A stretch of DNA of 64,000 nucleotides. Source: Bradyrhizobium guangzhouense (GTDB taxonomy: Bacteria > Pseudomonadota > Alphaproteobacteria > Rhizobiales > Xanthobacteraceae). The translations under genes were made by a program, and so were the position numbers. A model generated the notes under the pieces. That model was not told where the DNA came from. It searched no databases and saw only the letters and a program-made list of their open reading frames with translations. The stretch is from positions 6,138,001 through 6,202,000 of the forward strand of contig NZ_CP030053.1 in the NCBI RefSeq assembly GCF_004114955.1. Reading direction: 5' to 3'. This document shows, piece by piece, positions 32,612-63,179 of the stretch (its first letter is position 1; each line of letters starts with the position of its first letter).

Positions 32612-36076
<3,465 letters not shown>

Positions 36077-47890: not shown

Positions 47891-48967
47891 TCAAGCTTTC
47901 AAACGACGCTCCACAGACTTTGGCGAGAGCAAGCTGTATTTTTTTGCATGCAGCAAGAAGCATTTGCCAATCTGCCTGGCCATTAGCGGCGGCACCGCGT
48001 TCCCTACTTGCTCGGCCTTAGATGAGGCCGTACCGACAAACCTGTACTTGCGAGGAAACGTCTGCAGGCAGGCAGCTTCGCGGATCGTGATGGCTCGGTG
48101 TTGTTCTGGATGACCAAACCGACCGTTTGAATAGCTTATACATCGCGTCGTAAGCCCGGACGCTGGACGGTCCCATGCTAGACGTCCGTAGACATCAGAG
48201 TGCCCGTCGTGCCCCCGATGGCAGTCGAGCCAAAGCTCGTCAGGCCAGCTTTCTCTCCCTCCGCCTTCAGGTGTAGCGACAATCCTCCGCATATTGGTGT
48301 CGGAGAGCGTGGCGGCCCAGTGATCAGGATCGCGAGGATGCACCGCTCCCGCATTCACTCGCGGAAGATCGCCGATCCAATCGCGAACAGTAGCATAAGG
48401 CCGACGACCTGGCCCGTGGGTTGCTTTTGGTAACGCAATTGCGCTGTGCTTGCTTGCTATAAGAATTAGGCGATCTCTCTTCTGGGGTACTCCAAACCAC
48501 AGAGCCGGCAGCACTCCCATGGATGTGCTGTAGTTGTGTTGTTTGAGAAACTGAACGAACGAGTAGAGAGGTCCATCCTCCCCCTCGCTCACGCGCTGCA
48601 TGCCTGGCACGTTTTCCACGAGTATAAAGTCCGGCAACCAGCGATCGACAAAGCGCTCAAACTCTGCCAAGAGCGTCCGTCGCGGATCGTCGGACGTCAT
48701 ATGACGATTTTGCTTAGAAAATGGCTGACATGGAGCACATCCGCTAAAAAGGATTGGGCGAGTTCGACCAACGAAAAGCGGAGCGAGTGCTTCAACAGAG
48801 ATCTGGCGGATGTCTCGTTCAATAAATCTGGCGTTCGGAAAGTTGGCCCGAAAAGTAGCCGATGCGCTCGGATCATTGTCGAGCCCAAGCACGATCTGAA
48901 GGCCGGCCTGCTCCAAGCCGGTGCTGGTTCCTCCACATCCAGAGAAAAAGTCGACCACGTCAATCAC
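47891..48967 (-). CDS. C5-cytosine DNA methyltransferase
   Basis: A 358-residue DNA methyltransferase that should make 5-methylcytosine at a specific site. Motif I is DFFSGCGGTSTGLEQAG (residues 6-22), motif IV has the catalytic Cys80 in SGCAPCQPFSKQN, motif VI is ILVENVPG, motif VIII is PQKRDRLILIA, and motifs IX and X end in EQVGNAVPPLMAR. The target-recognition region between VIII and IX is about 100 residues. It overlaps the upstream ATPase gene by four bases (ATGA), so both are translated together. GC content is lower than in the flanking chromosome. No very-short-patch repair gene and no standard type II endonuclease are adjacent. Confidence 0.92.
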   Translation of the reverse strand: MIDVVDFFSGCGGTSTGLEQAGLQIVLGLDNDPSASATFRANFPNARFIERDIRQISVEALAPLFVGRTRPILFSGCAPCQPFSKQNRHMTSDDPRRTLLAEFERFVDRWLPDFILVENVPGMQRVSEGEDGPLYSFVQFLKQHNYSTSMGVLPALWFGVPQKRDRLILIASKHSAIALPKATHGPGRRPYATVRDWIGDLPRVNAGAVHPRDPDHWAATLSDTNMRRIVATPEGGGRESWPDELWLDCHRGHDGHSDVYGRLAWDRPASGLTTRCISYSNGRFGHPEQHRAITIREAACLQTFPRKYRFVGTASSKAEQVGNAVPPLMARQIGKCFLLHAKKYSLLSPKSVERRLKA

Positions 48968-50745
48968 GAGGATCTCTCAACAGCTTTTCTGGCCAATTCT
49001 CTAATCGCTTCGAATACCGGGTGACTCGTCGGGATCGTAGCCAATCGTCTCCTTTGCGTAGACAAGATGTCGTTCCCGTCAAGCGGCTGAAAATGCGCCA
49101 GAGCCAAATCTTGACGTGTCAAGTCATCAAATGCCTTCTTGAAGTCATTGTTTATCACCTGAGGTTCAATTCCGGTTTTTTGCATGTTTGTCCAGATGAA
49201 CTCCTCTGGCGAACTGACGGGCAGATACTGAACACAATTGCGACTCCAGTCGACAATTGTGCGGACCGCATTTTCGATCTGGGTTTGATTTCCACCGCTG
49301 TCGCCCCCATCAACGTTTATCTTGATAGTCGTGCCAGCAACCTCGCGCAGCTGCTTGTGCAACTGAGGGAAATCGTGGGCCGAAACGGTGTTGGCGGGCG
49401 GGAGCGGCTTTACTGGCGATTTGTCGCCATCGAGCAACACAACAACGTCCTTTCGTCCTTCGGCCGAAAACACCGGCACGTAATGTCCCCATATCGTTTC
49501 CGCACCACCTGGAAAAAATCTAGTCTGGAATTGGCTAGCAAAGGCTTCATCGAAGGAAAGCGCTCGATGGACAAGATGCTCCGCCAAGATGTCTTCGACA
49601 ACAATCTGTATGCGGCCAGCTATCGGCTCCCCAATATGGAAGAACGCCTCATTAGCGGCAGCTTTCTGACTAGGGATGATGTTCTTTCCTGTCTTGTGAT
49701 CGACTAAGATTACTTTGATGGCTTCTGGTGGCAGATGCCGGATGATGGCCGGGGAGTGGGTCGAGACGACGACCTGATGCTTGTGTTTCTTGATCTGCTC
49801 GAAAACAAATTCGACCAGCCTTTCCTGCGCACCTGGGTGCAATGAGACCTCCGGTTCATCCAATAGGATCAAAGAGGTCGGCTTCGCACCTAGGATGTCA
49901 ATGACGAGCCGTACAACAGCGAACTCGCCACTGCCTGCAAAAGCCTCCGTGTAATTCAGAGCAGAGGTCTTGAGCACACATGTCGCTCCGGCCACGTTAA
50001 AGAACGTGTGACGTAACCACCTAATCTCCGTATAGGTCCGACCTAGTATTTTGGAGACAGCAGCAACTTCGGCGGGACTGAGGCTCCTATTCTCCTGAAT
50101 TCTCTCCGAGCCGTGCCAGCTGTACGTCGTGAGGTTGTAGGAGATCGCCCTCTTCAGAAGCGGGGATCGGCGCCTTATAAATTCTTTGCGGTCTTGAAAG
50201 TTGGAGCCTGCACCGTAGTAAAAACTTCGATCATAGGCACTCAAGGTTTGCCGAAAGTCGATGTAGACGACCGGTTTATCTATCGTATCCCATCGAGTTT
50301 TTCCTTTGTTACCCGGCGCCGCAGCGGGATCGAAAGGCTCCATATCGTAGCGCCTGATCGGACGCGATGGCTCCCAATAATCCGGATTGTTCTGAATGTT
50401 CACGCGTGTCTTTAGAACCTCGACAATTTTTTGAACGCCGGGATGAAGATAACCGTAGACGAAGCACGGCTTGTCGTTCCCTCGGTCGCTAATCTCGTCG
50501 GTGCTCGTTGAAAACCAATAGAGCCCAAGACTGCTTTGCCCTGGCGTGCTCTGGATGGCTCGCAAAACCGAACTTTTGTTCGTCCCGTTCATGCCAACGA
50601 TGGCAGTAAAGGGAAACAGGAAATCGATCCGAGTATTCTGTTCCAAATTGCGGAAATAGGGGAACCTGATGTGCCGGACGAACGGCTCCAGTTTGTTCGT
50701 CAACATAAGCTGACGGACGGCTTCCCTATCCGACTCGAAGGTCAT
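48964..50745 (-). CDS. AAA/ABC-type ATPase with C-terminal TOPRIM-like domain (OLD-like)
   Basis: A 593-residue SMC/ABC-like ATPase. Walker A is GMNGTNKSS (residues 51-59, GxxGxNKS with Asn in place of the third Gly), a GSGE signature lies near 271, Walker B is SLILLDEPE (291-299) and the H-loop VVSTHSP follows. After residue 375 a TOPRIM-like domain can be read: Glu384 in VVEDILAEHL and the DxD pair 439/441 in VVLLDGDKS. This is the arrangement of OLD-family nucleases and related phage-defence effectors. It is coupled by ATGA to a C5 methyltransferase, which suggests a restriction-like or abortive defence module. It starts 157 bp left of the att site of the neighbouring element. Confidence 0.82.
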   Translation of the reverse strand: MTFESDREAVRQLMLTNKLEPFVRHIRFPYFRNLEQNTRIDFLFPFTAIVGMNGTNKSSVLRAIQSTPGQSSLGLYWFSTSTDEISDRGNDKPCFVYGYLHPGVQKIVEVLKTRVNIQNNPDYWEPSRPIRRYDMEPFDPAAAPGNKGKTRWDTIDKPVVYIDFRQTLSAYDRSFYYGAGSNFQDRKEFIRRRSPLLKRAISYNLTTYSWHGSERIQENRSLSPAEVAAVSKILGRTYTEIRWLRHTFFNVAGATCVLKTSALNYTEAFAGSGEFAVVRLVIDILGAKPTSLILLDEPEVSLHPGAQERLVEFVFEQIKKHKHQVVVSTHSPAIIRHLPPEAIKVILVDHKTGKNIIPSQKAAANEAFFHIGEPIAGRIQIVVEDILAEHLVHRALSFDEAFASQFQTRFFPGGAETIWGHYVPVFSAEGRKDVVVLLDGDKSPVKPLPPANTVSAHDFPQLHKQLREVAGTTIKINVDGGDSGGNQTQIENAVRTIVDWSRNCVQYLPVSSPEEFIWTNMQKTGIEPQVINNDFKKAFDDLTRQDLALAHFQPLDGNDILSTQRRRLATIPTSHPVFEAIRELARKAVERSS

Positions 50746-50901
50746 TGGTTTTCCCCCCGCGAGAAATAGCGGGAAGCAACTTAAAGCAGCAAGCCAATTT
50801 CGGTTTGTTCTGTGGATGAGCGCTCTTGTCGTAGCGGCTATCTAAATCGCTACCCAAGAGGGTCGGACAAATCAGGTACGATGCTAAGAGTTTGAAATCA
50901 T

Positions 50902-50918
50902 TGGTACAGTTGGGTGGG
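50902..50918 (+). other. Left attachment site of the integrative element
   Basis: TGGTACAGTTGGGTGGG is identical to 62776-62792, the complement of the 3' end of tRNA-His (T-stem, acceptor strand, A73 and CCA). The bases on both sides differ between the two copies. Confidence 0.85.
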
Positions 50919-50980
50919 TACCGCCAATAGCCAGCTTCGGCTTTGAAAAACTTGACGAATTTGCGCTCTCTCGCGCCGGC

Positions 50981-51003
50981 TTTGTAGCAGCCTTTTGTAT
51001 TTG
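50981..51003 (+). repeat. Left arm-like repeat of the element
   Basis: TTTGTAGC-A-GCCTTTTGTATTT matches TTTGTAGC-GCCTTTTGTATTT at 62690-62711 with one extra base. The copies lie 62 bases inside the left core and 64 bases inside the right core, in the same orientation. Confidence 0.55.
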
Positions 51004-51287
51004 CGCAAGACGATGCCAACGATACCCCGACAGCGCCGACGTTGATTTCGTTCCCAATCAAGCCAACGTGGGCAGCGTTTGGGATGACAAAACTATGCAA
51101 CCGGCATTCTCAATCCCGAAGCGTCAACCTTACGTCTTTCGCACGCATTGAACCTGAAATGGCTCCGACCGACGCAGGTTTTTGCCTCACGAGCCTTCAC
51201 ATAAGCAGCAGCCGCGGCGGCCAAAATCCAGTCTCTGAGAACGAAACGAGGGGGACGGCACGTCTTTCGCGATTTGTGAGCCCCAGC

Positions 51288-52133
51288 TCAATGCAAAATA
51301 CGAAATGGATCGTTACGTTGCTCCCAAGCCCTAATCTCCGCGTAAACTTTTGTCTTCGAGAAATCCTCGCGTGAGAAACCTAGGCGCAACTTCGACTCAA
51401 GCTCTGGCACCGAACAGTGAACGGCGTTTCTCGAACCGATCACGGATTGAAGTGCAACCCCTAGCGCAGCGATGAGATCGTGACCGCAAACAAGGTGATT
51501 TAGGTCCACCTCTGCAAAAGTGAAGTTCGTTATGAACGCTTTCGCCTCATCGAGCCCCGTGTGCTTGTTCGAGTGATCAAATACTTCTTTGACAATTTCG
51601 TCCAAATCAATCTCGAGCTTCCTCCCGAGGAACCTATACTTCAAGCCCTTGAATTTGAGATTAGCGTTCGTCTTCTGCGAGTACAGCCTCAAGCAACCAA
51701 GTTGCGAGCAGGCGTGGATAAGAAAGGCACGAACGGTTGTCGTCTGCTGAAGCTTCTTAATTTTATCTTTCGAGCCGTCTTCAATCAGGAGTCGATCCAA
51801 GGCGGAGGAATTGAACAGAACAACTTCGAAATCGTGGAAATCACTCTGAACAATATTCGGGGACGTAAAAGTCGTTTCAAGTATAGCCGCAAAATCAGCA
51901 TCAACGATTGCGAGTACACCTCGAAGACCGCTTTGATCGACCAAATCGATGGTCAGCAGAACATTTTCCTTCCCAAAACAGTTCACCAGGTTGCTTATGT
52001 CGACCTCCAGCAAACCTTCAAAGAGCCGGACATCAGAGTCGCCTTCTAGCAAGACAATTGACGACTCTGGGGTCTGTGTTCGCAGGAACAACACTTCGGC
52101 AGCCAGTGCTTCAGGCGTAATATCTTCGAACAT
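51288..52133 (-). CDS. ariB: DUF4435 (TOPRIM-type) protein, AriB-like effector of a PARIS system
   Basis: A 281-residue DUF4435 protein. The TOPRIM-like residues are Glu30 and Asp32/Asp34 in IVLLEGDSDVRLFEGLL, the pair Asp78/Asp80 in GVLAIVDADFA, and the family block SDFHDFEVVLFNSSALD near residue 97. In known PARIS systems the DUF4435 subunit AriB is the toxic nuclease released by the ATPase AriA when a phage anti-restriction protein is sensed, and it attacks tRNA. Here it starts one base after the stop of the ATPase gene. The size fits AriB. The assignment rests on gene pairing plus motifs. Confidence 0.75.
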   Translation of the reverse strand: MFEDITPEALAAEVLFLRTQTPESSIVLLEGDSDVRLFEGLLEVDISNLVNCFGKENVLLTIDLVDQSGLRGVLAIVDADFAAILETTFTSPNIVQSDFHDFEVVLFNSSALDRLLIEDGSKDKIKKLQQTTTVRAFLIHACSQLGCLRLYSQKTNANLKFKGLKYRFLGRKLEIDLDEIVKEVFDHSNKHTGLDEAKAFITNFTFAEVDLNHLVCGHDLIAALGVALQSVIGSRNAVHCSVPELESKLRLGFSREDFSKTKVYAEIRAWEQRNDPFRILH

Positions 52134-52134
52134 G

Positions 52135-53460
52135 CTATTTCGAGGCCGGTGCTTTGAGAGTTTCGATCAAACCCAAGCTACCGCTTGCTAGTTGCGGCGA
52201 ATGCGTCGCCAAAATTACGTCCATCGGAGCAAGCGAGATGATCTGCTTCAGGTCAGGCAGCACATGTTTCTGCCAAGCGATGTGAAGGGATATCTCCGGC
52301 TCATCGATCAACAGCAGAGAGTTTGGCTTAGTCTTGAAAAGCAGCTCGTAGATCAACACCAGCTCGTGCTGTTCTCCAGAGGACAGATCATTTGGCTCCA
52401 GCGACTCTCCTCTGAAGTCGATCAGCACGAAGCCCTTGTCCTTGTCCAAAGCGAGCTGCTTGAATTGAAAGCGCCTATTGATAATGCCCAAAAAGGTTTC
52501 GATTTTCGCCAATAGCTCGTTGAAGACTTCCAGCTTTTGAACGGAGTCAAACAAGTAAAGCGTCAAGATGCGACGGGTGTTGTGGTCGAACGCAACAGGG
52601 GACAACACCGTGTCTTCTTCACCTTTGTCCAGCAGACCTGCTTTCCGCAAGCGGGCACGGAGCTTTAGCAAATCTGCCAACCTCGCGCGGAGCGGGCCTT
52701 CCGGCAACGGCTTGAACGTACCCTTACCGCGAGCCAATAGGCGATTGGGGAAAGTTTGATCCAAGGATTGGGTTATGGCTGCCGATTGTTGGATTGCGTT
52801 TTTGATCGCTTGCGACACATCCTGAGAGAAGGTGAGAACAGCAGGTATGAAGTCGATTTTTGCATCCGGACGACTACTCGTGCGATCTGAACGCACCATC
52901 AAACGCTGTGTGTCTATCAGGCGGCAGTCAAATAGTTGACGCGTTTCTTCGATCCTCTTAGGCAGAGATGCCCTGTGCGCACGCGGATAAAAATGGGCGA
53001 AGCGTTCCCAAGCCTCTGCTGGGTCAAGAACCTGTCCCGTTCTAGGATCACGAAGCAGGCGACCATCGGAAACGGCGATGTCGTATCTCAGCCGCTCTGG
53101 AAGATCCTCCAAGTTTTTCTGATCCCACGGCGACCATCTTTCAAGCTCTCCGCCGTCTAAATCAAAATAAAGGTCATAGCGTCGTTCATAGGGGCGGCGC
53201 CTGTCGTTCGTCTCAACTGTAGTTTGCTCAATCCGGACGGATCTTCCATCGCTGAAGATGAAACGAGCTACAGAAAATTCGTACTGTCGAAATACGAGAA
53301 GCGAGCCTCCAAAAAAACCCGCGATCATCTTTAGAACGGCCGTTTTACCGAACCCGTTCGGCGCATGAATGATTGTTATGCGCTCTTTGGTTCTGAACGT
53401 AATGCGGTGATTGAAGAGGCCAAAAAGGCCATCGACTTCGAAATAAGAAAGCTGGATCAA
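52135..53460 (-). CDS. ariA: SMC/ABC-type AAA ATPase, AriA-like sensor of a PARIS system
   Basis: A 441-residue ABC-type ATPase of the AAA_15/AAA_21 group. Walker A is APNGFGKT (33-40), the signature LSSGEQHEL (359-367), Walker B LLLIDEPEISLH (382-393) and the H-loop LATHSP (418-422). The middle is a helical insertion with a Lys/Arg-rich stretch at 255-275. Size, domain order and the DUF4435 gene directly behind it fit AriA of the PARIS defence system. The start is a TTG (53460) after GAGGG. A gap of 107 bp separates it from the pentapeptide-repeat gene upstream on the same strand, so co-transcription is possible. Confidence 0.75.
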   Translation of the reverse strand: MIQLSYFEVDGLFGLFNHRITFRTKERITIIHAPNGFGKTAVLKMIAGFFGGSLLVFRQYEFSVARFIFSDGRSVRIEQTTVETNDRRRPYERRYDLYFDLDGGELERWSPWDQKNLEDLPERLRYDIAVSDGRLLRDPRTGQVLDPAEAWERFAHFYPRAHRASLPKRIEETRQLFDCRLIDTQRLMVRSDRTSSRPDAKIDFIPAVLTFSQDVSQAIKNAIQQSAAITQSLDQTFPNRLLARGKGTFKPLPEGPLRARLADLLKLRARLRKAGLLDKGEEDTVLSPVAFDHNTRRILTLYLFDSVQKLEVFNELLAKIETFLGIINRRFQFKQLALDKDKGFVLIDFRGESLEPNDLSSGEQHELVLIYELLFKTKPNSLLLIDEPEISLHIAWQKHVLPDLKQIISLAPMDVILATHSPQLASGSLGLIETLKAPASK

Positions 53461-53567
53461 TTTGCAGCACCCTCAGCCCGTCCTAGAACCTTTCTTCAAC
53501 ACGGCACAAGAGAAAGCAAGCTGCAATGCAACCAAATCACTACGACCTTGTGAGCAGAACTTCCTCC

Positions 53568-54674
53568 TTACCCACCTCTAGCCACCGCCTTGCTCAGCTC
53601 TCGGGTAAGCTCCCGTTTGAACTCGACTAGCGGCTTCCCAACCCACTCTGCCATCCATTGCGTCATAGTTTCATCGATGTGAATGCGGCCACCAGACGCC
53701 ACACCTATGCGCCGAACTAACCGCCCAATGTCTTCCTCGGCAGTCAAAGGCTCGCCGATAGAATAACGGGGGATCGCAACGCGCCGCCAATGAAGCCCTT
53801 TGCCGCGCAGATACTCCGGTTGCCAATTGGATGAGCAAAGAAAAATGAGGTACAGTCGGCCAGAGATGTTTTCACGGAGCTGCTCGTAAAATCGCTTCGA
53901 GATGGGTGGGAAACCAGAAAAAATGAGCATGCTCCTGTCCTTGGCCCTGCTCCCATTCAAGACACGCATCTCTAGCTCTCTCCGGAGACCCCGAACGAAT
54001 TCGCTCCGCATCTGATCATAGGTGCCTGGATGAACCCCGTCGCGGATGCGCTCTATGGCAGACTGATTGGCCCTGTATGGATAGATCCCGATATCTGCGG
54101 ACTTGTTACTCGAACGCAGGGTTTCGAAGAACGACTTATCTAGCGAGGCGGGGTTCAGCTTGAATTGAGAGCGCTCTGCTTTCGAGTAAAACCAAAGCAG
54201 CTTCGTCCCAGAGGCGTGAGCATTGAAGCCTTCTTGTACATGCGAACCATCGCCGAAATGGGCACACACACGCTTAGTTAGCAGATCCTGCTCCGCGGCC
54301 GTGTGGTAAAATGCCAATACTGGCGAGGCGTGATTTTCAGTGACCGACTGAAAGATTTGATTGATGGCCCAATCGGCGTTTTGGTAACGCGAGATTGCAG
54401 TGAGCACTTCTACAAGTGGGCCAACAGGACTTCCGGTCGCGGAGCCGTCCACGCCAATGATGCTTCGGCACCTCACTTTCGTGAGGTTAGCTCCACTTAG
54501 TTCGGCTCCAGTCAAATTGAGCGTATCAGCCTTCAAGGCACCAAAATCGACGCCCGTCAGATCACAATTTTGCAGATCTATAGCCGGATCGATGCCGAAA
54601 CGCTCTGCGAGCCTGCCAAAATCCTCTTCTTCAGTCTCCAACAGTGCAAATAGCGCCCTCAATGAGTCAGTCAT
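53568..54674 (-). CDS. Pentapeptide-repeat protein with a C-terminal domain of unknown function
   Basis: A 368-residue soluble protein. The N-terminal 35-75 region is a short pentapeptide-repeat stretch (QNCDLTGVDF, ADTLNLTGAELSGANLT) forming a beta-helix of two or three coils. The C-terminal 290 residues are unfamiliar: they include ASPVLAFYHTAAEQDLL, HASGTKLLWFYSK, RSMLIFSGFPPISKRFYEQL and RLYLIFLCSSNWQPEYL, strands and helices that look like a Rossmann- or nuclease-type alpha/beta domain but show no catalytic motif I can name. Its start overlaps the end of the gene upstream by eight bases. Its position beside the PARIS-like pair hints at defence, which is inference only. Confidence 0.75.
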   Translation of the reverse strand: MTDSLRALFALLETEEEDFGRLAERFGIDPAIDLQNCDLTGVDFGALKADTLNLTGAELSGANLTKVRCRSIIGVDGSATGSPVGPLVEVLTAISRYQNADWAINQIFQSVTENHASPVLAFYHTAAEQDLLTKRVCAHFGDGSHVQEGFNAHASGTKLLWFYSKAERSQFKLNPASLDKSFFETLRSSNKSADIGIYPYRANQSAIERIRDGVHPGTYDQMRSEFVRGLRRELEMRVLNGSRAKDRSMLIFSGFPPISKRFYEQLRENISGRLYLIFLCSSNWQPEYLRGKGLHWRRVAIPRYSIGEPLTAEEDIGRLVRRIGVASGGRIHIDETMTQWMAEWVGKPLVEFKRELTRELSKAVARGG

Positions 54675-55566
54675 CGCTCTTCACATCGCCTGCGAGCACT
54701 GAAGTCCAGCCTACGATTGATGACACGCCGGCTTTCTCGGTTGCTTGGTTGATTTCTCGGAGATGCTTGGCCAACAACACTTTCGCAATAGCAGTTTGGT
54801 TCGGAGACTTTTTGAAGCGGTCAATGAACGAAGCAGGAGCTTCGACATCTATCAAGACAATATCCTTCGGCAAAAACGTGAGGCGTCCTTCCACCTTTAC
54901 GCTTCGTGATGTAACGCGCAATTTGCAGAGTGCCTCATCGCCGGCGTAACGCGATTGCATATAGTCATCCACCACCGCAGAGAACCGCCAGCGATTTCCT
55001 GACATCGCTACGACCGGCTCCTCACGCAAATCCGCGGTTTGAGTTTCAGTTGTCGCAGCTCGGCTATCCTTCGCAGCTCCGACGCTAAAAGCTAGACTAC
55101 CTTCGCCCCGCGCAGACGCCGTTCCCTTAACACCCACTCCCAGAGAGCCCTTGCCGCTGGTGTGGCTACTCGCAACAGACGCTTGCGTATGCTGAACATG
55201 GGTCTTTGCAGAACTGGGTTTTCTATCGCCGAACCGATGCGCTGCAGGATCAACTTCACAGCCGTTGAGTTCCAAACCCAACGTCGCTCGCGCCAAACCA
55301 ATCTCCACCGATTTCGACCAGTCTTCCGAAGAGACTGTCATAGTGCCAAAGCGAACATCAGCACCAAGCAGAAAGTCTTGCTCATTGGCGCCTTGAGGCA
55401 CAAACAGAGCGACCTCAAGCAGTTCACCGCATCCCGCTTGCGCGATTTGCTCTAGCACAATTGGTTTCGGCTTCTTCGAGGCCACTGCTGCCCCCTCGGC
55501 CACAGGTTGTGGGACATGAGAGTATAAGACCACTGCGCAAAGAAAAGAGGCCCGGAACATAGTCAT
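54667..55566 (-). CDS. Putative exported protein of unknown function
   Basis: A 299-residue protein whose N-terminus (MTMFRASFLCAVVLYSHVPQPVAEGA) looks like a weak signal peptide. The middle is low complexity, rich in Ser, Gly, Ala and Thr (SVASSHTSGKGSLGVGVKGT, ARGEGSLAFSVGAAKDS), and the C-terminal 100 residues look globular (VDDYMQSRYAGDEALCKLRV). I recognise no family. Its stop overlaps the start of the pentapeptide-repeat gene by eight bases, so both are one translational unit. It is divergent from the serine recombinase gene. Confidence 0.65.
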   Translation of the reverse strand: MTMFRASFLCAVVLYSHVPQPVAEGAAVASKKPKPIVLEQIAQAGCGELLEVALFVPQGANEQDFLLGADVRFGTMTVSSEDWSKSVEIGLARATLGLELNGCEVDPAAHRFGDRKPSSAKTHVQHTQASVASSHTSGKGSLGVGVKGTASARGEGSLAFSVGAAKDSRAATTETQTADLREEPVVAMSGNRWRFSAVVDDYMQSRYAGDEALCKLRVTSRSVKVEGRLTFLPKDIVLIDVEAPASFIDRFKKSPNQTAIAKVLLAKHLREINQATEKAGVSSIVGWTSVLAGDVKSDD

Positions 55567-55649
55567 CGGAACGCGGGCGTCGGCAGATTGACAGCCAAGC
55601 CGATTGTATCTATTTCTCAGGAATAAGATACGAAAGAGGCACGCAAGTC

Positions 55650-56378
55650 ATGGTAAAATCGTCCAAATCTGTCAAGGCATTTGCCTATCTGAGGACCTCA
55701 TCAGCGGCGAACATTGGCGAGGACAAGGACAGCGGCCGTAGGCAGCTCCAAGCCATCGAAGCCTTCGCAAGACGCAGCGGTATCGAGTTGGTCGGGACCT
55801 ACCATGATGAGGCTGTGAAGGGTTCTGACCCTATCGACACTCGCCCCGGCTTCGCTGGTATGCTTGAGGCCTTAGAAGCTAACGGCACCAAGACCATAAT
55901 CGTCGAGACGGCCAATCGCTTCGCGCGTGACCTGATGGTGCAGGAGGTTGGCTTCGCGATGCTGAAGGCCAGAGGCTTCGACTTGATCGCCGCCGATAGC
56001 CCTACGTCGTTCCTGGACGACACGCCCACCGCACGGCTTATCAGACAGGTGCTCGGAGCCATCTCAGAATTTGAGAAGGCGATGCTCGTGGCTAAACTGA
56101 AAGGTGCTCGGGATCGGAAGCGTCGCACCGGATTGAAGGTCGAGGGACGCAAGTCCATTGGCGAGGAACGCCCCGAGACGGTTGAGCTTGCCCGCAGGCT
56201 GGCCCGCACGAGGCCGAAGGGTGGCAAACGGTCACTCAGGGAAATCTCGACCGCGCTTGCAGAGGCTGGGCACACCACGAAGACAGGAAGACCGTACGCT
56301 CCAACGGCAATCAAGCTGATGCTCGCACGGGCCTCTGGACGCGTCATCAGCGACACAGCGGAGGGACAAGGCAAATGA
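55650..56378 (+). CDS. Serine recombinase (resolvase/invertase family)
   Basis: A 242-residue site-specific recombinase. The catalytic Ser lies in FAYLRTSSAANIG, the Arg cluster in VETANRFARDLMVQEVGF, and the helix E region in LIRQVLGAISEFEKAMLVAKLKGARDRK-like sequence. The C-terminal part (SLREISTALAEAGHTTKTGRP) is a helix-turn-helix for DNA binding. It lacks the large C-terminal domains of phage-type large serine integrases, so it is more likely a resolvase or invertase. Its substrate in this element may be the direct repeats flanking the cyclase gene; that is a guess. It is divergent from the exported-protein gene. Confidence 0.88.
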   Translation: MVKSSKSVKAFAYLRTSSAANIGEDKDSGRRQLQAIEAFARRSGIELVGTYHDEAVKGSDPIDTRPGFAGMLEALEANGTKTIIVETANRFARDLMVQEVGFAMLKARGFDLIAADSPTSFLDDTPTARLIRQVLGAISEFEKAMLVAKLKGARDRKRRTGLKVEGRKSIGEERPETVELARRLARTRPKGGKRSLREISTALAEAGHTTKTGRPYAPTAIKLMLARASGRVISDTAEGQGK

Positions 56379-56661
56379 GCCCCCTCTGGTCGCAGCGGTG
56401 TTCAGCGCGCTCAGTCTGGTCTTCCGGCCATGGCAGGCAGACGACTGAAAAGAGCGCCGTTGAGGCTCCCTTGATGAGCCTCTCCGAAGGCACTGGATCC
56501 TAAATCGGCCAAGCCGGCGCCCCCATTTCAAAATCTTCGGCTTCAAGGGGCAAGCCGCCGCCGAGGTTCACAGGGCGCGTGGTCGCCACAGGAAGCAACG
56601 TCGTCCACGGGATCACTCGGGCAAGCCCCCTATTCGAAGCCCCTGAAGCGGGGTGTAGCGG
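56379..56661. repeat. Left copy of the direct repeat flanking the cyclase gene
   Basis: The repeat runs from about 56475 to 56567 and matches 58546-58638. The best part is 32 bases without mismatch, starting CCCCCATTTCAAAATCTTCG at 56521 and 58591. Both ends of the repeat share ATGAGCCTCTCCGA and GCCGAGGT. Before and after it no gene is seen in this gap. Confidence 0.75.
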
Positions 56662-58422
56662 CTATTCTGGGAGCCCAACTTCTCGGAATGCTCGAGCCAT
56701 GCGCTCAAGCCAAGCGGTATCCTTTGTCAGGCACAGCTGAAGAGTGTCTCTGACCGTCAAATCTGGACGAAAGCGCAGCATTTTTGACAGCGCATCGCGG
56801 GCCTCGATCATTCGTCCTGCCGGGACAGCGTTGATGACTAAGTATGCGAGCGTGTACATGAGCGGGTGTGCTTCGACGGCCTTCATGGCCCACTGAAAGC
56901 CTGTCTCGTACTGCTCCAGAGCGTTATAGGCACACGCAAGGCCAGTCCAAGCGTAGGCTTGGTGTGGGTCGAGAGGATCAAGTCTGAGAACCCTCATGAA
57001 ACATTCGATAGCCGCTTCCGCCTCACCATAATTGATCGACACCCAGCCTCTCGACATCCAACAGTAGCCATGACTGGGGTTCAGGGTCACGGCACGATCA
57101 GCAAGCTCCTTCGCCAAGTCATACTGTTGGCCGATGAAAGACAGGATATGAGCCGCTCTCGCCAACGCATGAGCGTCCTCGTGAGGCAGCGTAGCTACCT
57201 TCTGGGCCAACCCGAGTGCCTCGGACCGAACTTCCGGTGGGATGGGTGAGCCGTAGGAAATGTGTTGAAAGCAGAGGGTATAGCCAGCCATCGCGTAAGC
57301 AGCCGCGTAACCGGGGTCTAAGGTAAAAGCCTGAACAAAAAGACGGTATGCCTCTTCGAAACGCCGCTCATACCGTTGCAAGGCCATGCCCTTGACGTAA
57401 AGCTCATAGGCATCAAGGTCCGTTGTCGGCTTTGTTCTTACTCGTTCGAGTTCAGCCTTCTCTACCCAAAGAGAAACTGAGTTGACAATCTTGGCGGTCA
57501 GCGCATCTTGAAGATCGAAAATATCGCCGATGTCACCATCGAGCCTTTCGGCCCAAACATGCTTGTTGTGTGCCGCGTCGATCAGTTGAGCGGTGATCCG
57601 CAGACGGCCTCCAGCTCGCCTGATACTGCCTTCGAGTACATATCGAACTCCGAGTTCGCGTCCGACATGCCGTACATCGACGGACTTGCCCTTGAATGTG
57701 AAGCTCGAATTTCGGGCAATTACGAACAAGGTCGTGAACCGGGAGAGCGCGGTGATGATGTCCTCCGCCATACCGTCAGCGAAGTATTCCTGCTCGGGAT
57801 CACCGCTCATGTTCTGGAAGGGCAACACGGCCAATGAGGGCTTGTCAGGCAGCGGGAGGGTGCCTGAGTGTTCGACCGTTGGCCCGACATCCACTACTGA
57901 TCCAATCTGATAAACTCTGATCGGCTCGTCGATGTTCTTCACCTGTTGCGAACCGAGGTCTGTAAAGGTCAGCGGCAGGACTTTCCTCACTTGGTCGTAA
58001 GCAGCCCCCGAAATGCACACGGTGCCCGCCTTGGCTAACGTCTGCAGCCGTGCCGCAATGTTCACGCCGTCACCGAACAGGTCCCCTGCCCGCACCATCA
58101 CGTCACCAATGTGGACACCCATGCGGAAGTTGATCCGCTTGTCGAACGGGACACCTGCGTTCGCTTCAGCCAGCGCTGCCTGAGCCTCCACCGCACACTG
58201 CACCGCATCCACTGCGCTCCCGAACTCAGCAAGAACGCTGTCGCCCGCCGTGTTGGCTATGCGGCCCCTGTTGTCACCAATGAGCTTGTCGAGGATCGTG
58301 CGTCGCTCGGTGAGCCCCTTTAGCGTGCCGACCTCATCGGTGCCCATGAGCCGACTGTAGCCCTCCACGTCCGCTGCGAAGACTGCGACGAGCTTACGGC
58401 TGACCTCGCCAAGGTCTGACAT
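56662..58422 (-). CDS. Class III adenylate/guanylate cyclase with TolB-like and TPR domains
   Basis: A 586-residue protein of an architecture abundant in Bradyrhizobium. The cyclase domain covers residues 10-170: FAADVEGYSRLMGTDE holds the first metal Asp and ANTAGDSVLAEFGS the second. A TolB-N-like domain follows (SLAVLPFQNMSGDPEQEYFA, VLEGSIRRAGGRLRITAQLI), then TPR repeats to the end (ALQRYERRFEEAYRLFVQAF and others). It should make cAMP in the cytoplasm in response to a partner bound by the TPRs. ATG 58422 has GGGGCAG in front; the frame upstream runs into the repeat. The gene is bracketed by direct repeats. Confidence 0.88.
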   Translation of the reverse strand: MSDLGEVSRKLVAVFAADVEGYSRLMGTDEVGTLKGLTERRTILDKLIGDNRGRIANTAGDSVLAEFGSAVDAVQCAVEAQAALAEANAGVPFDKRINFRMGVHIGDVMVRAGDLFGDGVNIAARLQTLAKAGTVCISGAAYDQVRKVLPLTFTDLGSQQVKNIDEPIRVYQIGSVVDVGPTVEHSGTLPLPDKPSLAVLPFQNMSGDPEQEYFADGMAEDIITALSRFTTLFVIARNSSFTFKGKSVDVRHVGRELGVRYVLEGSIRRAGGRLRITAQLIDAAHNKHVWAERLDGDIGDIFDLQDALTAKIVNSVSLWVEKAELERVRTKPTTDLDAYELYVKGMALQRYERRFEEAYRLFVQAFTLDPGYAAAYAMAGYTLCFQHISYGSPIPPEVRSEALGLAQKVATLPHEDAHALARAAHILSFIGQQYDLAKELADRAVTLNPSHGYCWMSRGWVSINYGEAEAAIECFMRVLRLDPLDPHQAYAWTGLACAYNALEQYETGFQWAMKAVEAHPLMYTLAYLVINAVPAGRMIEARDALSKMLRFRPDLTVRDTLQLCLTKDTAWLERMARAFREVGLPE

Positions 58423-58545
58423 TCGCTGCCCCGATGCCACCTGTGTTGCAGGTAGTATCATTTCGCAGGCGGTAGAATGGCGCAAGGGTTCCCCGGCGAG
58501 CAGATGGCTGGAAGGATCGGACCCCTGCAATGTTCGCCGCCCTTC

Positions 58546-58638
58546 ATGAGCCTCTCCGACACACCCGGATCCTATTTTGCCGCCCTGCCGCCCCCATTTC
58601 AAAATCTTCGGCTTCAAGGGGCTCGCCGTCGCCGAGGT
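58546..58638 (+). repeat. Right copy of the direct repeat flanking the cyclase gene
   Basis: It matches 56475-56567, with an identical 32-base part starting at 58591. Because the repeat contains stop-free sequence, reading frames on the minus strand extend through it from the cyclase gene without being coding. Confidence 0.75.
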
Positions 58639-58662
58639 GACAACAGTGCGAGCCCAGTCAGG

Positions 58663-59316
58663 CTAAGCTGCGGAAAACAGGTCGATGGCGGGAACGCCGA
58701 ACTTTTCCGGACAATCACCGCTCTGAATGGAAAGGTAAGGACTGCGGCCTTTCAGCAGTTGCTGGACCTCCTGTTCACCGTACCCCAATTGAGCCATGTA
58801 GGTGTTCAGGCGCTTCCCAGAGGCGACGGCACGCGCCAAAAGCTGCTCAATGATGTCTCTGTCCGGATGCCGCGGCTCCAAATCAACGGCCAAATCAACA
58901 TCGCCGACTTCCGGTGCATCGCTCGCATACGACCCGAACGCACGAACCCGCTTGACCCGGAAGACAAGCTCGTCTCGCTCGTTGATTTCAGTCACGCGCT
59001 CCAACATCTGTGCTACCAAGGCATCCGCTTTGGCCCGAGTGATCCGCTTAACGAACCGGGCTACACACAGGCGTGAACCAAGGGCTGTCAGGGAGTACTT
59101 TCCCCCAACTCCGCCGCCCTGCACTTCCTGCTTGGCCTCAATGAACCCGGCGTCGGCAATCGCTTGAAGAACGGTCTGGGCTTGGGCGGACGTGAGCCCC
59201 AAGTCGGCTTCTGCAGAAGCAGCGGTGATGTTGTGCCCTTGAGGGTAGTTTCGCAGGAAGTCGCGTATTTTGATCAAGGGAAGTCCGGCGAGGGTATCGT
59301 TCTTGCTGACATGCAT
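58663..59316 (-). CDS. Winged-helix plus minimal nucleotidyltransferase fusion
   Basis: A 217-residue protein. Residues 10-80 form a winged helix (IKIRDFLRNYPQGHNITAAS, LTSAQAQTVLQAIADAGFIE), and residues 110-190 a minimal nucleotidyltransferase domain with the motif AFGSYASDAPEVGDVDLAVDL (GS...DxD). Related MNT proteins act with HEPN toxins and AMPylate them, but no HEPN gene is adjacent here, so it may be an orphan antitoxin-like enzyme, a defence component or an element regulator. ATG 59316 is clear of other genes. It is the first gene after the replication-related block of the element. Confidence 0.8.
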   Translation of the reverse strand: MHVSKNDTLAGLPLIKIRDFLRNYPQGHNITAASAEADLGLTSAQAQTVLQAIADAGFIEAKQEVQGGGVGGKYSLTALGSRLCVARFVKRITRAKADALVAQMLERVTEINERDELVFRVKRVRAFGSYASDAPEVGDVDLAVDLEPRHPDRDIIEQLLARAVASGKRLNTYMAQLGYGEQEVQQLLKGRSPYLSIQSGDCPEKFGVPAIDLFSAA

Positions 59317-59650
59317 GGTCGTTACGTCACCTCTGGGGTGCTTCTCGGAGGCCTTAGGAAGGCCCGTGGTTCAATTTTGGATACTGGGAGTCAACCAGCC
59401 GGGGCCGCAGGTGGAGGCTCAGGGGGGCCCTGCTCAGGCGGCTGAGCGTAGCACCCCACCCGGTCATTGACTTCTCGGGGTGCCTCGGGTCCACCGGAGC
59501 CGCAACCGACAACACTCCCAATGGTCATAAACTGATAAAACGTTTCCAGTGTACCTGTGTAGCTCCTCTGCCTTCTCTACCATCATCAATCACCATTCCC
59601 CCTCTCCCTTGTATCCCCCCTGTGGCTTCCCCTCTTGCCCCCCTGTCTTC
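59317..59650. other. Intergenic region with a long pyrimidine tract
   Basis: No gene is seen. From about 59566 to 59653 the + strand is almost all C and T (purine-rich on the minus strand). The tract ends at the stop of the polymerase-like gene. It may be a terminator-like or replication-related feature; nothing firmer can be said. Confidence 0.45.
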
Positions 59651-60991
59651 TCAGGGAAGAGTTGGACGGTTGATTTTTAACAGAGGTGTTGCTTCCAACT
59701 GAGACCGAAACGTTTCCTTGAGTATCTCATGTGCTGTATCGGCTTTGTGGGCCGGTACGATCAGGCTGTCGTGGACGCTCAGGCTCGGTATCTGATGTTC
59801 CCTCTTCAACTGCAACATCGTCGTAATCATCACATTGCTTTCAAACCACATCAGACCCGCCCAGCCGTTGGTGGCATGGCGAAGTGGTTGGCCCCAAGTC
59901 TCAAGAGCGGGATACTTGGCAAGAGCCGCTTTCGTGATGGTTGAGACGCGGTGTTGCTTCAGCTCCGGGAACTTCTGAAGCATGCGCGGTGGCCATCGAA
60001 CGATGGGTTTCGCATTGCCGAACGTAGCAACCATCCAAGCCTTCACTGAGCTGCGGTGCTCAGGCCCAAGGCCGGGCAGCTCATAAGGATCACCTTCGGG
60101 CAGCTGGACGCCACGCAAAGACAGGAAGATTGTGAGGTAGCTTGCCCGAATGTCTATCTCCGCGACCGGCTCACCATCGATAGTCATCTTCAGCCGTTTG
60201 TGACCGCTCATAACCTGGTAGCTGTCGGAGAAGTGCTGGCTATAGAGCCGCCCGCCCATGTTCCAAAAGAAGCTGGGATCATCGCCATTGTGGAAGATCC
60301 GCACGTAGCCATGGTGCTCACCACCGCGCAGCTTGTGTTGCGCGAAGAATTCGTTCAGCTCCCGCACATTGCCTTCGATAGCGCTGGTTATGCCATCTCT
60401 CTCGAACGGCATTGGCTTTCCCGGTGGCCTACTCGTCGCCCAGTAAGAGACTTCCTTGGCCGCTCGAAGCTCCAACACCACCTTCGGGAGGTCATACTCG
60501 AACTCGAAGTGATCATGCACGCTCGCAGGATTGACAGACCGTTCCTTCGAAAAGCACAGCAGAGCGGGTGTTGCACGAAAACGAGCCGCGAACTTTCCCC
60601 TGTCATCCCTGGAGACCTTGTGGCCGTCGATGTGTTCGAGCAGCGCGAGACGCTGGAAGCCATCCACGAGCTGCACGAAGGTTCGGAAGGAAACCTTGGC
60701 TCCCGTAAAGGACTTTGCGTGCATGCTTCGATAGACCCACGGGTTGGGGTCTGGCTCATTCTGGCCGTACGGCCGAAGAAGGTCCGCCAAGAACGCCCCA
60801 ACGGCATACCTGAGTTTTTCCGTGGTGCTCTGCCGCTTGTTGGTTCGTGCACCCGTCGCAAGAGCATGCTCGTCCACCATGTTCGCTAAGGAGCTAACGA
60901 GCAGCTCGGCCTCTTCTGAGATGGGATGTGCGCGCAAGCGGGCGTGTTTCGCGGCTTGAAGTTCTTCTTGGTCGATTGAAGCTGAAGTCAT
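59651..60991 (-). CDS. Putative family-A polymerase-like (palm-domain) protein
   Basis: A 446-residue protein without an annotated family that I can name. Three motifs occur in the order of family-A polymerases: motif A EIDIRASYLTI (278-288, Asp280), a motif-B-like helix R313-SSV-K317-AWMVAT-F324-G325, and motif C LSVHDSLIVP (404-413, His407/Asp408). Before motif A, NMGGRLYSQ (244-252) resembles the DxxGR motif of single-subunit polymerases. There is no 3'-5' exonuclease domain. ATG 60991 has AGGAAGAA upstream; a TTG at 61063 is less likely. It lies directly behind the integrase gene, so it probably serves replication or maintenance of the element. Confidence 0.6.
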   Translation of the reverse strand: MTSASIDQEELQAAKHARLRAHPISEEAELLVSSLANMVDEHALATGARTNKRQSTTEKLRYAVGAFLADLLRPYGQNEPDPNPWVYRSMHAKSFTGAKVSFRTFVQLVDGFQRLALLEHIDGHKVSRDDRGKFAARFRATPALLCFSKERSVNPASVHDHFEFEYDLPKVVLELRAAKEVSYWATSRPPGKPMPFERDGITSAIEGNVRELNEFFAQHKLRGGEHHGYVRIFHNGDDPSFFWNMGGRLYSQHFSDSYQVMSGHKRLKMTIDGEPVAEIDIRASYLTIFLSLRGVQLPEGDPYELPGLGPEHRSSVKAWMVATFGNAKPIVRWPPRMLQKFPELKQHRVSTITKAALAKYPALETWGQPLRHATNGWAGLMWFESNVMITTMLQLKREHQIPSLSVHDSLIVPAHKADTAHEILKETFRSQLEATPLLKINRPTLP

Positions 60992-61064
60992 TTCTTCCTG
61001 TCGTCGTGGATTTTCTTTGTTTGCCTGCGGTTGGTGCGCAAGCAGCCCCTGATGGACGACCAAT

Positions 61065-62690
61065 TCATTCCAGAGAGTAGCGCGGGAACTTCTTTAGAGC
61101 GTCTGCCATCGCGGTCACATTGGGCGTCCCGTACTTCCGCCCTTCAGTGGCTTGTGTATGACCCGTGATGGCGTCGTTCATCTTCTCCGGTATCCCGGCT
61201 TCGTCAGCAATGCGCTTGAACGTGTGACGCCAAGCATGGTTCGGGCTGATGTGAGGATCATCGACACCCAACTCACGAACCCAAGTTCCCAGATGAGCGC
61301 GCGCGGTGTCAGACCGAGGCCGCGGGGGCTTCAGCGGATCTACAATGGGCCGTTGCGGTGTCTTGTCATTGTAGAACAGTGCACCCTTCCCAACCTGCTT
61401 GATCATCTCAATGAAACCTTGAGCAATCAGGTGTTCGTGGATGGGCACAACACGCGGCTTTCCGGTCTTGATCGTGCCGGCCTCGGGCGTCAGCTTCATT
61501 ACGTAGAGGCCCTTACGATCCTCAATGTCGATCCCGCGCAACTGCGTGATTTCGCCCGGTCTTGCCCCGGAGTACGCACAAAGCCAAGGCACCCAGCGGC
61601 GAGTTCTCTCTGTGGGCGTGATAGGCTTCTCAATGGCCAAGCTGGCGTTGAGGATGATCTTTGCCTCAGCGTCCGTGAAGCTCCGGCCATCTTCTCGTGT
61701 CTGCGCCTTGCGCGGAACATCGACGCGAACTTCCTTGAACGGATTTTGTCCAATTTTCTTGTGCTCGCGCGCCCAGCCGAACACACGACGGGCAGAGGAC
61801 AACCAAATCTCACGAACAGTTATGGCCTGACGTTCTTCGCCGATCAGGCCCCGTATCCAGTCGCGCGCAGCGTCCTCCGTGATGCCATTTGCGCCGACCT
61901 CGGCAAACTGGCGTTGCATCTCAAGGAACACGGCACGCCATCTGATCACCGTCTTGTCGGCGGGCTTGACCGCAAGGACGAACGCTTCAAACAATTCCCA
62001 GCAGCTCACGCCCGAAGCTCTCACGGGGCCATCGGTGAATGCCGGGAAAGTGTCCGGGTTGTCATCGCGTGAGTAGTCACCGCTCGCGCGCTTTTGCAGC
62101 ACTGAGATAGCGGGCATCAAGTTGTCGCTTACGGCGTCCACGAACAGCGCATAGGCGGTCGAGTTGAGCGCCATTCCTTCGCCGGCTAGGAAGGTCGCTA
62201 CGCGCGCCAGCTCGGCTACTTGCGGCCTCACCGCCTCGCGCACCTCCGGCTCCTTCGCCCACTCCCAATTACGATCAGCCTTGGAATTTTCGAGGAAGCT
62301 GTCGGGCGCCTCAGGATAGAGGACATTCCACGTGAGGTGGTCACCGAATTCCTTCCAGTATTTTACTGGACCGGGATTGGCCTCGTGTTGCCTCACGAAC
62401 CAAACGTACCAGCGGCCTGCAAGAGCTATAGCGTTGAGACGAGTAAGCGGTTGACCCTCACCATTCTGCTGCGCTCGAAGCGCCGCGATGCGCGTTTCAA
62501 TCTCGGCCAACCACTCGCCGTGCTGAGTCTTCGCGAAGGGAGCCGGAGTGCCTGCGGGGATGCGAAGCTGTGCTTCCCATCGGACCTTGTACAGGCGCGC
62601 GTACTCATCACGGACGTCGGCAGGGATGCTCTTGCGAGCAACGAAGCCGCCACCTTTTGCTCGAACCAGACCGACCATACGCAATGCCAT
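61065..62690 (-). CDS. Tyrosine integrase of the tRNA-His element
   Basis: A 541-residue tyrosine recombinase, long for the family because of an N-terminal extension that may carry an arm-binding and coiled region. The catalytic domain has the first Arg in CAYSGARPGEITQLRG, the box II pattern HAWRHTFKRIADEAG (His, Arg), GHTQATEGRKYG with the presumed nucleophile Tyr, and conserved Lys in AGTIKTGKPRVVPIHEH. It starts 86 bp from the right att core at tRNA-His, as usual for tRNA-targeting integrases, and the polymerase-like gene follows on the same strand. Confidence 0.92.
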   Translation of the reverse strand: MALRMVGLVRAKGGGFVARKSIPADVRDEYARLYKVRWEAQLRIPAGTPAPFAKTQHGEWLAEIETRIAALRAQQNGEGQPLTRLNAIALAGRWYVWFVRQHEANPGPVKYWKEFGDHLTWNVLYPEAPDSFLENSKADRNWEWAKEPEVREAVRPQVAELARVATFLAGEGMALNSTAYALFVDAVSDNLMPAISVLQKRASGDYSRDDNPDTFPAFTDGPVRASGVSCWELFEAFVLAVKPADKTVIRWRAVFLEMQRQFAEVGANGITEDAARDWIRGLIGEERQAITVREIWLSSARRVFGWAREHKKIGQNPFKEVRVDVPRKAQTREDGRSFTDAEAKIILNASLAIEKPITPTERTRRWVPWLCAYSGARPGEITQLRGIDIEDRKGLYVMKLTPEAGTIKTGKPRVVPIHEHLIAQGFIEMIKQVGKGALFYNDKTPQRPIVDPLKPPRPRSDTARAHLGTWVRELGVDDPHISPNHAWRHTFKRIADEAGIPEKMNDAITGHTQATEGRKYGTPNVTAMADALKKFPRYSLE

Positions 62691-62711
62691 TTGTAGCGCC
62701 TTTTGTATTTT
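62690..62711 (+). repeat. Right arm-like repeat of the element
   Basis: The partner of 50981-51003, overlapping the integrase start region. Position and orientation suit an arm-type integrase site that could also let the integrase control its own promoter. Confidence 0.5.
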
Positions 62712-62775
62712 GCAAGGCGCAAAAACGTCAGGTCTATCAGCAAGATACTGGAACTGCAGGGTGATTTAGCAGTGG

Positions 62776-62792
62776 TGGTACAGTTGGGTGGG
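62776..62792 (+). other. Right attachment site (inside tRNA-His)
   Basis: The 17 bases equal 50902-50918. They span the CCA, the discriminator base, the acceptor 3' strand and part of the T-stem. Confidence 0.85.
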
Positions 62793-62852
62793 CTCGAACC
62801 ACCGACCTCCTGTTCCACAGACAGGCGCTCTAACCAACTGAGCTACAACTGC
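62776..62852 (-). tRNA. tRNA-His (anticodon GTG)
   Basis: A 77-base tRNA on the minus strand: acceptor GCAGTTG with CAACTGT, D-arm GCTC-AGTTGGTTA-GAGC, anticodon arm CCTGT-CTGTGGA-ACAGG with anticodon GTG, T-arm GGTGG-TTCGAGC-CCACC and encoded CCA. The discriminator base is A73 and no extra G is encoded at -1, a feature known for alphaproteobacterial tRNA-His. The 3' end serves as the integration site, and insertion has kept the tRNA intact. Confidence 0.95.
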
Positions 62853-63179
62853 ATCCTTGCGAGCCGCGCCTTGGGGCTGCCTGAAAAGGCCTGACGCCTA
62901 AGGGGGCTGGACGGGGCGGAAACTAGGTGCAACGGGGGTTTTTGGCAAGGCCGCAGAGGGTCGAAAAACCGGGGTAAATTGCGGTCTGCGCGATAAAAAT
63001 CGGGGTTGATGGCGGCCGTGGGGTTGTTCTGCTCGTCTCGCCTGCTTGTGGAGAAAATCCCCCAGAGGAGAGAGCCCTCACCCGCGCCTTCGGCGCGACC
63101 TCTCCCGCAGGCGGGAGAGGTAAGAAAAACCCGGGCCTTTGGGCCCGGGTTTCCTAACTTGCTCGATCCGCCGGTTTGA
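62853..63179. repeat. Intergenic region with family B repeat and phasin terminator
   Basis: At 63033-63121 lies a family B repeat with CCTCTCCCGCAGGCGGGAGAGG at its end. At 63125-63153 AAACCCGGGCC-TTTG-GGCCCGGGTTT forms a perfect bidirectional terminator just behind the phasin stop. The rest, next to the tRNA, should hold the tRNA promoter. Confidence 0.65.

Follow-up and report, generated by a model that had tools for sequence, protein, structure and literature searches.

The DNA examined here, a window of 64,000 nucleotides from the 8,138,177-base genome of Bradyrhizobium guangzhouense (G000), contains an 11.9-kb integrative element at a tRNA-His gene, in which a tyrosine integrase (Int) is followed directly by a polymerase, P, that resembles the A-family polymerases called TV-Pol. 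All coordinates are positions in the window. The element is delimited by two copies of a 17-bp core, TGGTACAGTTGGGTGGG, found with 0 mismatches on the plus strand at 50902-50918 (attL) and 62776-62792 (attR). The attL core is an exact copy of the 3′ end of tRNA-His(GTG) (62776-62852, minus strand; ARAGORN, Rfam tRNA 71 bits), the integration target, which contains the attR core and is left intact. The integrase (61065-62690, minus strand; Pfam Phage_integrase 1.2e-6, PHROG integrase 1e-23) is the first gene inside the tRNA end, its open reading frame (ORF) starting 85 bases inside the tRNA edge. The locus has the direct repeats of an integrative element, one of them completing a tRNA gene, with an integrase between them. 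At ≤1 mismatch the core has two matches in the whole genome, both at the element's ends, and at ≤3 mismatches its sole further match in the window is at 34707 (3 mismatches; mean in shuffles 0.10). The original prediction, made from the window alone, had placed the element between these exact repeats, with an integrase adjoining the tRNA, and had named recurrence of the core elsewhere in the genome as evidence against it. The ends and the integrase are borne out, and no copy beyond the two cores exists at the one-mismatch threshold.

Arm-type sites lie inside both cores. The left one (50981-51003, plus strand) reads TTTGTA-N6-TTTTGTATTT. In all six left ends compared (the window and the sibling loci L083 and L086-L089, which all share the left-end core) TTTGTA-N6-TTTTGTATT is present with TTTTGTATT exactly +91 from the left core, and this spacing is kept where much of the surrounding DNA has diverged. 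The right site (62690-62711, plus strand) is a comparable pair separated by 5 bases (some have TTTGTG); TTTTGTATT lies -73 to -75 from the right core in 5/5 two-ended elements. The arm-like repeats, which the prediction had noticed inside both cores, are real and beyond chance. Core and arm site recur in elements of five further genomes, four of which are complete (9.6-17.0 kb) with the core at both ends.

Relatives were sought among 195 genomes drawn from the genus, one per species. The left flank with the core was matched in 194 of the 195 at E ≤ 10, many by the core alone; the best left-flank match outside G000, in genome G013, reached 79% over 50828-50918. A query joining window positions 50781-50918 to 62793-62900, with the core at query positions 122-138, aligned across the junction in G013 (query 48-231, 190 columns, 87%, E 1e-58) and G083 (query 62-237, 178 columns, 89%, E 5e-59). 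The empty tRNA-His site expected in relatives, with flanks joining cleanly at the core, is therefore present in both. Since these are other species, the empty state applies to the site rather than to the same strain; no strain-level empty site with the methyltransferase/OLD flank described below was found in this one-per-species set. In G083 tenA lies ~2.3 kb from tRNA-His, and among 15 window proteins compared only tenA and phasin match. In 20 relatives examined the tRNA-His sequence is kept from the core onward and the DNA to its left varies, which marks the locus as an insertion hot spot.

P (59651-61063, minus strand) is a 470-amino-acid open frame with a likelier ATG start at 60991, and the frame begins one base behind that of the integrase. 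It has relatives at E ≤ 1e-5 in 32 of the 195 genomes, 15 of them below 1e-40 including the window's own. No family was matched in Pfam, PADLOC or NCBIfam; PHROGs returned a family of unknown function (8.5e-19) and, weakly, an RNA-polymerase family (0.035). Two alignments were built: a narrow one, A1, of 17 P sequences (L096 and the L102 fragment left out, the L097 and L098 fragments unused), and a broad one, A3, of 48 rows comprising the window and 47 of 57 relative frames (ten left out: L112, L115, L116, L120, L122, L139, L147, L148, L150, L153; the fused L111 frame was not among the 57). Invariant in all 48 rows are R261, R279, G286, D293, K330 and D421; D314, R326 and H420 are kept in ≥90%. 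TV-Pol is described as having a template-contacting Arg, two palm Asp, and a fingers Asp with RxxxK (PMC2579912). P has counterparts of each: an A-family palm with two conserved Asp (D293, D421), a β-hairpin Arg before the palm (R261), which pairs with the TGRL of PolA, and a fingers Asp with RxxxK after the first palm strand (D314, R326, K330). A D5-like helicase, a feature of a subset of TV-Pol, has no counterpart among 10 window proteins scanned with Pfam, where no helicase family appeared; D5_N matched one of the 48 P rows, at 0.011.

The predicted fold of P (mean predicted local distance difference test score 82) places it near the same family. Foldseek against the PDB returned Taq-type, Pol nu and Bst polymerases first (best E 1.5e-5, template modelling (TM) score about 0.3), with 66 matches at E ≤ 0.001. 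In a viral structure library the first 11 matches, at E 1.6e-19 to 8.4e-15, were proteins of 400-450 amino acids, most of whose length was covered by the alignment; one bears the name DNA polymerase. The replication protein of Zamilon virus, which we take to be a virophage TV-Pol, was a weak fold match (E 1.2e-3). Profile alignment of A3 with 23 PolA domains (from 24 loci, one without an open frame; one domain is a 159-amino-acid piece) gave a P-value of 5.4e-6 and Prob 85.7, pairing GGRL with TGRL, motif A with motif A and VHDS with VHDE. Kinship of P to A-family polymerases is thus well supported by profile and structure model, and residue pattern, context and predicted fold make P TV-Pol-like, without a direct sequence link. 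The original prediction had described a cargo dominated by defence-like and unexplained genes. The unexplained gene beside the integrase encodes this TV-Pol-like polymerase, and the plus-strand gene a serine recombinase.

Twenty element sequences, some cut by contig ends and some including host flank, were clustered by protein, with genes called as the longest ORF of ≥80 amino acids. The Int/P cluster (merged through the L092 fusion) is present in 20/20, L108 contributing only its P. A small serine recombinase (Res) follows in 15/20, as a 94-amino-acid fragment in L092, and beyond these only two clusters reach three of the 20 sequences and none more. Over 58 P loci, a tyrosine integrase lies ≤540 bases upstream on the same strand or in the same frame at 18, and anywhere in the DNA examined at 40, as counted with a profile built from 11 integrases, 10 of which came from loci then counted. 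Pfam assigned Phage_integrase to 20 and Resolvase to five of the largest frames upstream of P (52 proteins, including the window integrase and the L111 fusion). Integrase and P form a single open frame of 1046 amino acids in L092 (genome G129, tRNA-Glu) and are also fused in L111. The tRNAs near the elements are tRNA-His, tRNA-Glu(CTC) and tRNA-Arg(ACG).

In the window the serine recombinase, a resolvase-like core gene, occupies 55650-56378 (plus strand; Pfam Resolvase 1.7e-23). Upstream of it lies an inverted repeat, GTATCT-N14-AGATAC (55606-55631, plus strand), a candidate resolution site; similar sequences precede the same type of recombinase in L083, L086 and L089. A different palindrome, GGAATC-N5-GATTCC, is found in L087, L088, L089, L096, L112 and L113, usually immediately before Res and embedded in a longer stretch of conserved sequence. 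It was considered as a general signal and dropped, as only these six siblings have it and the window and G000 do not.

Integrase and polymerase do not share one history. Over 18 pairs, Int identity does not correlate with P identity (rho -0.02, Mantel p 0.53), and in the 14 elements with Res the Res-P correlation is 0.00 (p 0.48). On the P tree the tRNA target changes nine times (minimum possible three, shuffled mean 8.0), and on the Int tree three times, the minimum, which was reached by 0/200 shuffles; L119 was labelled His from its core, L112 carries no target label, and within the His group the Int tree leaves most forks unresolved. The clearest pair is L093 (His) and L095 (Arg), whose DNA is 97.7% identical from a point 14 bases ahead of the P start, identity staying at 97% to ~600 bases past the P stop, and whose integrases are only 21% identical. 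Sequence comparison thus shows Int and P to re-assort, the integrase being exchanged beside a near-constant polymerase.

The DNA behind P follows the polymerase. A tail motif, AGGTACACTGGAAAC (59542-59556, minus strand), lies 94 bases behind the P frame and is present in 6/6 elements of this P clade. As motif A, AGGTACACTGGRAMC on the P strand, it occurs in 6/6 clade-A elements, its distal edge 44-186 bases past the P frame (one mismatch in L085). Motif B, CCATATCGTGGAACGAATGTTTG, belongs to nine clade-B elements, eight at ≤1 mismatch and L112 at four; L092 has five. At these thresholds each motif occurs once per element, in DNA otherwise largely unalike, and His, Glu and Arg targets are represented in both clades. 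Neither motif occurs at the same thresholds in 20 background loci (382,420 bases). Exact motif A is found once in the 8.1-Mb genome; at one mismatch there are three genome matches, a control level (reversed pattern: 2). The best 18-mer common to six clade-A tails has ≤4 mismatches, against ≥6 in 60 shuffles, and that common to seven clade-B tails (L094, L095 and L092 left out) has three, against ≥7 in shuffles. The tail motif tracks the P clade and not the tRNA target, and we regard it as a candidate for an origin or a priming site.

A structured RNA behind P was also considered and rejected. The tails look palindromic, yet their folding lies mostly within the spread of mononucleotide shuffles (eight tails; z -2.3 to +1.8, one +4.5), a consensus fold from 12 of 18 P tails is weak at about -10 kcal/mol, and Rfam has no match close to the P tail of the window even at E ≤ 5. 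Given the weak folding and the lack of an Rfam match, we claim no RNA there.

The remaining genes of the window element, all on the minus strand, differ from one sibling to the next. Nearest to attL is a PARIS-like pair, an AriB-like effector (51288-52133; PADLOC AriB 3.9e-13 over residues 25-229) adjoining an AriA-like ATPase (52135-53460; PADLOC AriA 3.9e-23, next PtuA 5.5e-21). Against the PDB the ATPase matches AriA (8ux9) at 6.6e-16 and PtuA at 1.7e-5. The AriB-like protein has no Pfam DUF4435 match at E ≤ 0.01, its sole Pfam listing being DUF3226 at 0.0079, below the cut-off, and no PDB match at E ≤ 1; because DUF4435 is missing, we name the pair PARIS-like only. Two genes of no assigned family follow. 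The protein of 53568-54674 has an N-terminal pentapeptide stretch and no relative in the other genomes of the genus (195 searched, E ≤ 1e-8); its gene overlaps by 8 bases the next one (54667-55566), the start of the two-gene operon, whose protein has no family listed in Pfam, PADLOC, PHROGs or NCBIfam. Together, 53568-55566 is a candidate for a new two-gene system within the defence cargo.

Beyond the serine recombinase, an adenylate-cyclase/tetratricopeptide-repeat (TPR)-type gene (56662-58617), scanned against NCBIfam only and not common to the 19 other element sequences, represents cargo or a later insertion. It is bounded by direct repeats within ~100 bp (56468-56567 and 58540-58638; blocks of 35 and 50 nt, 80% and 94%), as if it were a duplication or an insertion inside the element. 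Next to it, an NTP-transferase-like gene (58663-59316; Pfam NTP_transf_2 0.0023, below the cut-off) has a 68% relative beside the P fragment in L102. The cargo of siblings was scanned for 38 of 54 ORFs, setting aside Int, P, Res and one 136-amino-acid frame; among the families listed (25 of 86; 25 of 42) are McrBC, Mrr, GmrSD, DrmA, PifA, KAP, a DRT-type protein and methyltransferase/Vsr. Cargo in this family is variable and defence-rich.

Low GC content extends left beyond 50902 to about 48 kb. Here, outside the left core, a C5 DNA methyltransferase (47891-48967) and an OLD/HEC-04-like ATPase (48964-50745) form one operon; the OLD-like protein has no relative in the other genomes of the genus (195 searched, E ≤ 1e-30). 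In G027 a match to 46154-46529 sits ~80 bases from a match to 50837 onward. Because both flanks are joined so closely in this one relative compared, ~46.6-50.8 kb is best read as DNA inserted separately in the window, unless G027 has lost it, and this junction, with the position outside the left core, led us to reject the operon as part of the element. The defence-like cargo of the original prediction is upheld by the AriA/AriB pair, and the methyltransferase and OLD-like genes just to the left seem to be a separate insertion. Paired cores were observed at two other loci. L203, in G027, is an eroded element with cores 3.1 kb apart and an integrase match limited to residues 1-117. L040, in G077, has two copies of the core with adjoining tRNA-His sequence at 1017 and 13359, 12.3 kb apart, and its element may bring its own tRNA end. 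Elsewhere in the window ARAGORN called a tRNA whose anticodon has two bases and whose type is undefined (32055-32130).

We consider it probable that the element is non-conjugative and moves by excision, replication of the circle by its TV-Pol, resolution of dimers and reinsertion. The integrase would recombine the 17-bp cores to give a circle; TV-Pol would prime and copy the circle, with the tail motif behind the gene as a possible starting point; dimers would be resolved by the serine recombinase; and the circle would reinsert at tRNA-His. In the circle attP would lie directly before int, so that the two would form one contiguous cassette, exchangeable as a unit. Recombination at the int/P border could then swap the attP-int cassette and so redirect one and the same replication module to another tRNA. 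The element may pay its way by defence genes, here the PARIS-like pair. The original prediction had stated that conjugation and capsid genes are absent; here no relaxase or conjugation system was found among the window proteins scanned (Pfam, PHROGs, NCBIfam), and no capsid or packaging PHROG in 10 window proteins. With no recognised transfer genes, passage between cells would have to rely on the machinery of others. A bolder extension, which we put forward tentatively and think doubtful, is that P, as an A-family primase-polymerase, and its short tail, as the cognate origin, constitute a minimal self-contained replicon without its own helicase or single-stranded DNA-binding protein (SSB), constant while attP-int cassettes swap and roaming over tRNA-His, -Glu and -Arg, the Int-Pol fusions then being single-protein integrase-replicases.

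Several observations weigh against replication of the circle by P, or against parts of the case for it. Neither a helicase nor an SSB gene could be recognised in the window element, and by analogy with CCPol, which needs its partner MP to prime, P alone may only extend primers. The PolA fold match is partial (TM about 0.15-0.33), with some B-family chains among the best 50; the narrow alignment A1 fails against PolA (Prob 1.3), and only A3 works. A sequence search of P against PDB chains gave nothing meaningful, and kinship by that route was dropped. Five of the 20 element sequences, some of them cut short, show no serine recombinase, and L088, L096, L099 and L108 have neither tail motif. At 18 of the 58 P loci, several with short flanks, no integrase was seen in the DNA examined, and 10 of the 18 loci with an integrase directly upstream of P are themselves profile seeds. 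In the 14-element subset with Res, Int and P are weakly positively correlated (rho 0.17, p 0.09), and the value for Res and Int is 0.26 (p 0.03); by these figures exchange is not fully free, Int and Res being partly linked.

That no helicase, SSB or replication-initiator gene was recognised among the window proteins scanned (Pfam, PHROGs, NCBIfam) would suit an ordinary tRNA genomic island, copied only with the chromosome, in which P is a relic or cargo that replicates nothing. We think this unlikely, as P sits within 540 bases of the integrase or in one frame with it at 18 of 58 loci, its catalytic residues are kept across 48 rows, and it travels with a fixed tail motif over three tRNA targets, a conservation that the cargo does not show. 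Alternatively, the element could be a phage satellite of the P4, phage-inducible chromosomal island (PICI) or PICI-like element (PLE) type, with P as satellite replicase and a helper phage packaging the circle. Its size class (10-17 kb), tRNA site and defence cargo would fit, PARIS is known from P4-like satellites (PMC9122126), and the fold of P resembles phage proteins of 400-450 amino acids (E down to 1.6e-19). However, only Int, P and Res are widely common to siblings, and no capsid, packaging or helper-regulatory PHROG was found in 10 window proteins, where cargo of no known family leaves room. By sequence, P has two weak matches in 50,697 phage records, two matches in 72,556 plasmid records, and two confirmed cases among 45 pattern-matched stretches of viral contigs. 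We therefore regard a satellite as quite improbable.

A role of P in integration itself, for instance copying or repairing ends during strand exchange, would account for the Int-P adjacency and the 1046-residue fusion in L092. DNA synthesis is not required by tyrosine recombinases, P is found beside integrases that are unrelated to one another, and the conserved DNA motif lies behind P and not at the att ends, so we give this role very little credence and favour replication of the excised circle.

TV-Pol mobile elements were proposed in 2008 by Iyer, Abhiman and Aravind, the main basis being gene neighbourhoods; for a Brucella element repeats were noted as well (PMC2579912). As portrayed there, they have a minimal polymerase of the A family whose residue pattern is that of P, lie in neighbourhoods with a gamma-delta resolvase and a lambda-type integrase, and integrate at hot spots near restriction-modification operons, all of which they share with ours. 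Here the ends, empty site and arm sites are delimited, integrase exchange is shown, a tail motif linked to the polymerase and a fusion of Int and Pol are added, and no D5 helicase is recognised. Apart from the TV-Pol and CCPol papers, the open literature searched yielded no description of such elements.

With the CCPol-MP and PolA-SSB primases of staphylococcal cassette chromosome mec (SCCmec) and its kin the element has in common a chromosomal cassette, an A-family polymerase, a site-specific recombinase and conflict genes. SCCmec has a preferred priming site downstream of its helicase gene, to be compared with the tail motif behind P. Such systems mostly have large serine recombinases, a helicase and an oligonucleotide-binding (OB)-fold SSB, and all those surveyed are in Bacillota (PMC7581432, PMC10061031). 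Here, in contrast, the recombinase is a tyrosine integrase, the host is an alphaproteobacterium and neither helicase nor SSB is recognised: the gene after P in the window is NTP-transferase-like and not common to siblings, and no OB-fold SSB or helicase was recognised in the P operon, where no fold search for small OB proteins was made.

Pipolins likewise combine their own polymerase with a tyrosine recombinase, att repeats in a tRNA gene and variable cargo, but their polymerase is of family B, piPolB (PMC7385651). No piPolB gene is present here; P aligns with A-family PolA, and exchange of the integrase brings a change of tRNA target. The AriA/AriB pair as cargo of an integrative element is shared with PARIS on P4-like satellites, and relative to the carriers featured in that account (PMC9122126) no satellite gene was recognised in the present one. 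The family is another carrier of anti-phage systems, besides phage satellites and pipolins. Two questions become open to direct test: how an integrative element comes to switch its chromosomal target, and whether an excised island that brings neither helicase nor SSB can be replicated by an A-family polymerase. TV-Pol mobile elements, proposed in 2008 largely on the strength of neighbourhoods, are now represented in a tractable soil bacterium by elements whose ends are exact, for which an empty site is known and which carry a candidate origin.

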